64,000 nt of DNA from Cheilinus undulatus (taxonomy: Eukaryota; Chordata; Actinopteri; Labriformes; Labridae). This document shows, piece by piece, positions 9,501 through 12,500 of the stretch. Below the pieces are notes generated by a model, which saw nothing but the letters and a program-made list of their open reading frames with translations, did not search any database and had not been told where the DNA came from. Both the position numbers and the translations under genes were made by a program. Each line of letters opens with the position of its first letter. The stretch's first letter is position 1. Location of the stretch: assembly GCF_018320785.1 (NCBI RefSeq), contig NC_054885.1:4414921-4478920 (forward strand). The letters are read 5' to 3'.

Positions 9501-12500
9501 CGTTCAAATCCACATCACAGTGCATCATGGAAAAGATTATTTTCAACACCATCGATATCTAGACTTTTATCCAAAGTCTTTTAATGATGCATATCCAACT
9601 TTTTAGCAACCATTACAGTCAATTACATCTCTAATTTCTTGGAAAGCACCCAACATATAGGAGTAATCAAAGATAATTACAGTAATGTTTCTGGTTCTGT
9701 AATGGCAGATTTCCTGTTTTCTTCATGTTAACTAAATCTGGATTTTTAAAATGACTTGTGGGCCACATTGAGTAAGTTGGGCAGCCCTCAGGCTGCCAGT
9801 CGCACCACTAACCAGATCGTTAGCATGCAAACGGTTGGCAAAAATGTCTCCCTGGTCAGAATCAGTTCTAGAGGTTTCAGAGGAGAGATGAAAATTCTTC
9901 AACATCCTTAAACAAGTCCAGTTTCCCCCCTTGGATCACACTTGAAATAACCTGAATGACTGACGAAGTACAAGGATATTTGATGGGACTTTAATTCTAT
10001 ATTTTATAGATCTTTATTTCCTAAACTGGGGTCCGATATAACCCTAGTGGGGGTGCCAAAGATCTCAGGGGTGGTGTGAGGGTTTGTCTGCTCTGAGGTT
10101 GTGAAATTTAGATGTATGACCGAGATCATGGTAAAAATTTTGTTTATACTAACATCTTTTGTATGATTAACATGTGCAGTCCTATTTTCTTAGGGTCAGC
10201 TCCAGGCCAGGGGCACATATTTTTGCTAGAAAAGACTGAAAAAGTGTATTTTGCGTGTGACCTTTAAAGCCTGGTGGAAATGCAGACAACTGTGGTTCAC
10301 AGGAACCATTTAGTTCCTTCAAGAACTAAAAGCACCTACGTTTTCATCTTTTCAGGCCCCTTTCTTTCCTTATTGTGATTCATTTCTCCATATGCAAGTG
10401 TCTAAAAATGTCTTGACTAAAGTTTCCTGTATAATGTTACTTCTCAGGTGGACTACAAAGCAGACGAGTGGCTGATGAAGAACATGGACCCTTTGAATGA
10501 CAACGTGGCCACGCTGCTCAACACGTCCACTGACAAGTTCGTCTCTGAGCTGTGGAGGGACGGTGAGTTTGGGTTTAAGGTGTCGTAGGAATCGCCGCGT
10601 CTTTCTGTGGGTGGTAGGAATATGTTTTCTGTTGGCTTCTGTTCCTGTTCTACATTTCATAGTGTTTTCTTTTTCTCTTTATTGTCTGATGTGTGAACCT
10701 TTGTGTTTACCTTTTTTACCTCCCACTTGTTGTTTCCGTCCATTTATTCCTCTGTACAATCCCATTTTCGTGCGTCTTATTTTCTTTTACGGGGTCTCAG
10801 AAATGCAGAAAAGTCAGAGAGCCTCTTTTTATCAGCGTTTTCCTTTTCTACACTCAGACTCAGGTGACCGGGTTTCTTTTTTTTTCACTCCTGCTGTTTG
10901 TTTGAAAACCTCTTCTCCTTCCTTTCCTCCTGAATGTTCAGGTTTATTTCTGGGTAAATATTCTCCGTTGTTTGTTTGTGTGAAGTTACAAACCTTCTGA
11001 CCGTCTATCATTGAACTCTCCTTTTCTCCCTCTGTGTACTAGCGTTGTTTGGGGACCCCTGGTGTTGGTCTTGGGTACTTCAGCGATGGGTATATACTGC
11101 ATGGGTTTGGTTTGGTTTTTCTGATCACAACAGAAGTACATGCCCACTGCATTGGCCAAAATTTCTCACCTTAACATGATTTAAACCATCACACATAGTT
11201 TCCACTCTACAAACTGCACTGATGTGTCATTTTTTATTATTATGGTGTGTGATCTCTCCACGCTTCACTGGCTTTTTGTGACTCCACTCTGTCATCCCGA
11301 TCCCCGTTCCCTCCGCATCCACTCGGTGTTTGTGTGGTGTCTCACTGGTCCTGGTTTTGTGAACTTTTAAGCAGAGAAAGTGGAGAGACAACAGTCATTC
11401 TCATCCCTGCATTTGGCTTGATTTTGCCTGGTTGAATATTTTACTCTTCTCATGAAAACCTTTCACTTTCTAACATATCTGTTCTGTTTTTCTTCTTCTG
11501 TTCCTGTCTTTCTCCTCTTTAGTGGACCGCATCGTGGGTCTGGATAAGGTGTCCGGCATGTCTGAGCCCGGTGCCTTTAAGACTCGTAAGGGAATGTTCC
11601 GCACCGTGGGCCAGCTGTACAAAGAGCAGCTGTCTAAACTCATGGCCACTTTGAGGAACACAAACCCCAACTTTGTACGCTGCATCATCCCCAACCACGA
11701 GAAAAAGGTACCCGTGAAAAAAGTTCCTTTTTAGTGATGCTATGAGCACTCTAGTGTGTGTTTGGTCATCATACTGAACTGTTATAATGCATTTAAGATT
11801 AAGTTGATTCTTTTTTTTAGAGCAAACAGTAACAAATATGTAATAAAGTCCATTATATAAGACTGTTGCAAACACTATTTTAAATTGTGGAAGTGTTAAT
11901 CAATGCATGGCTGATTGAGCAAAAGGATGAATGGTCTTAGATGTCCAGAATAAAGTGTTCAGGGCAGGTAGAGTTGTTAACCAGTGCCCAGATAATAGAC
12001 TGTAATCCAGAGATTAATTAGCTGTTAACTATACAGACTCGTCATGTGTCAGCTCTGTACGACAAAAGAAGGTTTGTCGACCAGCATTTTTCCATGAGGA
12101 AGACGAGACTAAGTATAGATAAAAATCGATCTTTGATTAAAGACTCAAACAAATTGGTTAGTTTTTGCAAGGATACTAAAACAAGTCTTAATTGTCACAT
12201 TGGACATTTAAATTCCATGATAATTCTCCACCATGACTATAATCGGTAAAACACGAGCAGAAACTGGGTAGAGAACATTCATGGGCGTTCACACCACCTC
12301 TTTACATTGACTTTACATGTAATTAGCTTGTGCAAATGATTCTACTCGCGTCTGGTATGAACTAGGGGTGTAAAGGTACGTGTATTTGTACCGTGTCCGT
12401 TTGGTACGGGCCTCTCGGTACGGTACAGACGTGTCCCGAGAGGTTACTTGTGGAACGAAGCTCATACACAGATGGAAAACCAGAGAACAACTCACTGTCG

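Follow-up and report, generated by a model that had tools for sequence, protein, structure and literature searches.

A cassette-type exon in the loop-2 intron of a MYH9-class gene

We analysed a 64,000-nucleotide stretch of the Cheilinus undulatus genome (C21:4414921-4478920 of a 1.17-Gb assembly; hereafter the window), which carries a non-muscle myosin II heavy-chain gene. Splice-aware alignment of a provisional human MYH9 probe traced 37 exons of this gene in an open frame; its 5' end lies beyond the window, and the stop codon (25036-25038) was read from the context of the last exon. An extra leading segment of the alignment (30-69) was judged spurious and dropped. Compared with solved structures, the 701-residue motor-and-neck part of the protein matches Myosin-9 best (1445 bits), followed by Myosin-10 (1373), Myosin-11 (1324) and Myosin-14 (1093). 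This order indicates that the gene is of the MYH9 class, in agreement with the first-pass annotation of this DNA. The features around loop 2 are the following:

558..25038, + strand: MYH9-class non-muscle myosin II heavy-chain gene
10448..10562, + strand: exon before loop 2, ending in ...SELWRD plus one base, phase 1
10801..10863, + strand: putative A2 cassette exon, 63 nt, 21 residues, 14/21 identical to mouse A2 and 13/21 to human A2
10864..10869, + strand: donor of the cassette, GTGACC, with C at +5 (as in 4/36 other donors of the gene)
11098..11103, + strand: candidate Rbfox site TGCATG, 235 nt downstream of the A2 exon
11523..11707, + strand: exon after loop 2, read from sequence and alignment

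Among ten open frames scanned in the 27-60 kb region, two match the mitochondrial carrier protein family (PF00153; 34054-34539 and 36326-36787, + strand, E 1.4e-9 and 2.2e-8) and represent a carrier gene that adjoins the myosin gene on its downstream side; of the others, seven gave no match and one a match below threshold.

The loop-2 intron is 960 nt long, from the exon end at 10562 (GACG|gtgagt) to the exon start at 11523 (ttag|TGGACC). Within it, the segment 10801-10863 is preceded by AG and followed by GT, is open and in phase 1, and starts at the second base of a Glu codon; coordinates, length, splice dinucleotides, frame and phase were re-read exactly as first annotated. Its inclusion keeps the frame, the split codons being G|AA (Glu) and G|TG (Val). 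Since 66.9% of 1000 dinucleotide-shuffled versions of the intron also contain an open 63-nt AG...GT segment, splice-site geometry alone is weak evidence for an exon.

The splice sites were scored with a model built from the 36 donors and 36 acceptors of the host gene itself. The donor, with its C at +5, is ordinary: its score of 8.01 lies above the median of 7.44, is exceeded by 13 of the 36 constitutive donors and is reached by ∼1% of 985 decoy GTs. The acceptor, at 4.19 against a median of 7.95, is weak: 29 of 36 acceptors score higher, ∼12% of decoy AGs reach the same value, and its pyrimidine tract is interrupted. The splice sites had been described as clean, which is true of the donor but not of the acceptor. 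In mouse A2, by contrast, the donor is reported as weak and the acceptor as optimal (Mallick et al. 2026, PMC13158602), the mouse study having used MaxEntScan and ours the own-gene model.

Relationship to the mammalian A2 exon

A 63-nt exon of MYH9 in loop 2, named A2, was reported in mouse and human in 2023 (Das et al., PMC10480317), so that a loop-2 switch in MYH9 is already known in mammals; the same paper states that loop-2 splicing is common to the family in mammals. Mouse A2 mRNA amounts to 15% in brain and 5% in skeletal muscle compared with the unspliced form, and A2 mRNA is also present in human brain and muscle; the mouse protein was detected in brain and was below detection in skeletal muscle (PMC10480317). 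In NM IIA2, the A2-bearing motor, actin-activated ATPase is very low and motility is absent; when mixed with ordinary NM IIA, it slows the latter (PMC10480317). RbFox proteins promote inclusion of mouse A2, NOVA1 and MBNL1 do so less strongly, and either of two donor mutations, C>G or G>A, raises inclusion (PMC13158602). In their available text, the two papers (PMC10480317, PMC13158602) name only mouse and human. The second aligned 10 species; its main text leaves them unnamed and never mentions zebrafish, Danio, chicken or Xenopus. Among the titles and openings of abstracts listed, we found no published fish A2 exon.

The mouse A2 peptide is EMQSTQRAYFYRRFPILHLES, and the human one, derived from printed primers, is EMQSTQRAYFYHRFPILHLEP (PMC10480317). 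The fish peptide is identical to mouse A2 at 14/21 positions, to human A2 at 13/21 and to MYH10 B2, for which a provisional sequence was used throughout, at 10/21. Its BLOSUM score against mouse A2 is 76; no other 21-mer on either strand of the window scores above 27. At the nucleotide level the fish exon matches human A2 at 49/63 positions (78%; binomial P 7e-15 at a chance identity of 0.30 and 1e-9 at 0.40), with 9 of 21 codons identical, 4 synonymous and 8 replaced.

The first-pass annotation had called the segment a B2-type exon. It was right about a loop-2 cassette-type exon that resembles MYH10 B2 in site, phase, length and first half. The first-half core QRASFY is common to this exon and B2. 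The B2 label itself has to be given up: the host gene is not MYH10, and the proper counterpart is the published A2 exon of MYH9 (PMC10480317). Nor has the second half, described as diverged, changed at random; it is A2-specific, with 6/10 of its last ten residues matching mouse A2, 5/10 human A2 and 2/10 B2. The segment shares with mammalian A2 the MYH9 gene, the length of 63 nt and 21 residues, the loop-2 flanks, the start at the second base of a Glu codon (PMC10480317, PMC13158602), the donor GTGAC(C/U) and peptide similarity along its full length; 7/21 residues differ from mouse. The donor is GTGACC in the fish against the motif GUGACU in mouse, where the +5 placement of the C was deduced from the text of the paper (PMC13158602); because 4/36 other donors of the fish gene also have C at +5, this match is suggestive only. 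On these comparisons, 10801-10863 is confirmed as a real feature with strong homology and is best read as the fish orthologue of mouse and human A2, which corrects its identity from a B2-type novelty to a counterpart of a known exon. A spliced-in query against solved structures found no chain carrying the insert; with a limit of E 10 it gave two matches, with E values of 0.4 and 1.5.

Loop-2 introns of paralogous genes

Searching the genome with the exon after loop 2 as query gave seven strong loci at E <= 5.1e-22, window included, among 36 matches at E <= 1, the others not exceeding 42.8 bits. The loop-2 introns of all seven loci were scanned, with the following exons found outside the window:

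C4:25.10M, MYH10-class: 63-nt phase-1 B2 exon, EIQTIQRASFYDNVTSLDEPA, 15/21 to B2
C21:5.84M, MYH10-class: 63-nt phase-1 B2 exon, DIQTFQRASFYDNVSGLHEAP, 16/21 to B2
C8:31.01M (L033): phase-1 exon, DIQTLPRVYFFDSYATIQANGSD, 69 nt, donor ACA|gtaggt

The two B2 exons score 38 and 40 against fish A2 (shuffle maxima 21 in 150 and 24 in 300). Both contain RASFY and not RACFY, at odds with the B2 start EIQNIQRACFYD given in the first-pass annotation. They share with the window exon its length, phase and site, and differ from it in composition. The net charge of the peptide is -3 and -2 in the fish B2 exons, 0 in human A2 and +1 in fish and mouse A2; in the second half it is again -3 and -2 in the B2 exons, 0 in fish and human A2 and +1 in mouse A2. 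Each of the three A2 peptides has four aromatic residues, the fish B2 exons two and three. These differences suggest that A2 and B2 may act on actin differently.

The C8 exon is 69 nt long if ended at the GT just past its 21-residue match, an end chosen for frame. It scores 35, against shuffle maxima of 21 (150 shuffles, fish B2 queries) and 31 (150) with A2 added to the queries. It starts with DIQT and has aromatic residues near the middle. Like MYH14 C2, which is 99 nt long in mammals (PMC13158602), it shares site and phase with the window exon but differs from it in length, and matches it at 3/21 positions. The C8 gene fits Myosin-10 (460 bits) better than Myosin-14 (411 bits) among solved structures, so that a MYH14-like label for it is a guess by elimination.

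The scan found no cassette in the loop-2 introns of the remaining loci: the second MYH9-class copy at C4:25.45M (290 nt; best score reached by 183/300 shuffles) and the MYH11-class genes at C4:16.13M (522 nt; 37/300) and C21:2.25M (84 nt; 109/300). Among solved structures, the best matches are Myosin-9 for C4:25.45M, Myosin-10 for C21:5.84M and Myosin-11 for C4:16.13M. The classes of C4:25.10M (95% identical to C21:5.84M) and C21:2.25M (85% identical to C4:16.13M) were assigned by tree and identity only. In a tree built from eight rows, including the provisional human MYH9 sequence, the window gene pairs with C4:25.45M at 99/99 support, the MYH10-class genes pair at 84/89, and the latter pair joins the C8 gene at 95/94. 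Human MYH9, 88% identical to the window gene and 86% to C4:25.10M, does not join the pair formed by the window gene and C4:25.45M but branches at a fork that the tree leaves unresolved.

When the 21-residue insert itself served as query against the genome, the window copy alone was recovered at E <= 10. This search missed the B2 exons, which were found by scanning paralogous introns; its silence elsewhere therefore means little.

One gene each of the MYH9, MYH10 and MYH11 classes lies on C4 (25.45, 25.10 and 16.13 Mb) and on C21 (4.43, 5.84 and 2.25 Mb). The two trios look like parts of a pair of duplicated chromosomes.

A TGCATG motif downstream of the cassettes

The motif TGCATG was looked for because Rbfox was already suspected. 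It occurs 235, 198, 127 and 20 nt downstream of the A2, the two B2 and the C8 cassettes, and is found neither in the three cassette-free loop-2 introns nor in the first 250 nt after the exon preceding each cassette. No other of the 4096 hexamers occurs in the 250 nt that follow every one of the four cassettes, a cut-off chosen after seeing the data, for four exons of one genome. At all cut-offs tried from 240 to 500 nt TGCATG is common to the four; other hexamers join it from 280 nt, and none is shared at 230 nt or less. Among other exons of the seven genes with long enough introns, 8/43 have the motif in the first 250 nt (one-sided Fisher P 0.003), and among those of the same four genes 6/31 do (P 0.004); the product of density-based chances is 2e-4. 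For four exons to have one hexamer in common is no rarity: random control quadruples of constitutive exons share 0.50 hexamers on average, 63% of them sharing none. None of 5000 such quadruples shares TGCATG, a control that is uninformative for this motif because none of the three C8-gene control exons has it.

The shared downstream TGCATG is a good lead, not proof, for candidate Rbfox control of the fish cassettes. UGCAUG is reported to be absent from the introns and exon of mouse A2, where RbFox is proposed to bind at GUGACU near the donor (PMC13158602, available text). This suggests that the fish and mouse Rbfox routes may differ. In the loop-2 intron at C21:5.84M, the B2 exon is also preceded by two further TGCATG motifs, at -234 and -131 as counted from the exon end; upstream and downstream motifs could there mediate opposite Rbfox effects.

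Proposed role and alternative explanations

We read the exon as the teleost orthologue of MYH9 A2, an optional loop-2 insert whose inclusion would brake the motor, and give this reading a probability of about 0.8. Alternative use, tissue, Rbfox control and loss of motor activity are here extrapolated from the mammalian work to the fish. In the non-muscle myosin IIA motor, A2 would form an optional insert of 21 residues immediately ahead of loop 2; if it is skipped, the ordinary motor would result. Inclusion would most likely take place in neurons, perhaps also in muscle, under Rbfox proteins; the insert would lengthen the actin-binding loop and block actin-activated ATPase, and A2-bearing motors might then serve as tether and brake in mixed filaments.

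The exon could instead be a relic, inherited from an A2-bearing ancestor and no longer spliced in Cheilinus undulatus. The weak acceptor with its interrupted pyrimidine tract would fit such a relic, as would the sister MYH9-class copy that lacks the exon. However, the open frame, both splice dinucleotides, the +5 C and 49/63 nucleotides of human A2 have been kept, which would not be expected of an unconstrained intron since the fish-mammal split, and we consider a relic unlikely.

More improbable still is that MYH9 gained a MYH10-type B2 exon in fish through gene conversion or exon copying. The first eleven residues are compatible with such a gain, being as close to B2 (8/11) as to mammalian A2 (8/11). 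Against it, the second half sides with mouse A2 over B2, the whole peptide matches each of the fish B2 exons at only 9/21, and comparison of the window intron with both B2-bearing introns gave a single match with E <0.05, which is 19 nt long and confined to the exon. A chance open segment can practically be dismissed: although 67% of shuffled introns offer such geometry, the score of 76 against mouse A2 compares with a maximum of 31 in 1000 intron shuffles and, for AG-anchored segments, of 20 in 300.

Age and presumed loss of the loop-2 cassette

The match of the fish segment to mouse and human A2 indicates that the MYH9 loop-2 switch is probably older than the fish-mammal split, which lies ∼430 million years back. 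A fish orthologue would thus place the brake exon of MYH9 before fish and tetrapods separated. The common place, phase, length and QRASFY core of fish A2 and B2, together with their above-shuffle scores, further support a loop-2 cassette older than the MYH9/MYH10 split. The first-pass annotation had proposed this from the window; the two B2 exons in the same genome support it and favour a single ancestral loop-2 switch.

After duplication of the MYH9-class gene, one copy has A2 and the other does not. As mammals have A2, the second copy presumably lost the exon, rather than the first having gained it late. The two copies offer a natural comparison for the function of the switch. New in these results are the age of A2, its occurrence in a single member of the MYH9-class pair and the UGCAUG common to the cassettes, which gives a testable account of the first control of the switch; the two 63-nt B2 exons, the 69-nt C8 exon and the three cassette-free loci are new for the Cheilinus undulatus genome.

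A broader scenario is tentative, and we hold it to be possible though rather doubtful. MYH9, MYH10 and MYH14 might descend from a single non-muscle myosin II gene that already had a loop-2 brake exon, controlled by an Rbfox site (UGCAUG) in the intron after it. The fish would then keep this layout in all four cassettes found, mouse A2 would have shifted to an Rbfox effect at the donor site, and only one of the two MYH9 copies would have kept the switch after the teleost duplication.

A further myosin frame

An unrelated observation concerns a locus on C14 (L045; C14:44299501-44309000). Positions 587-6478 of this locus, on the minus strand, hold an intronless, unbroken frame for a sarcomeric-type myosin heavy chain, 1,963 residues long from a GTG and about 1,930 from the first Met, with GESGAGKT and FVRC present. 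It is apparently an intact retrocopy.
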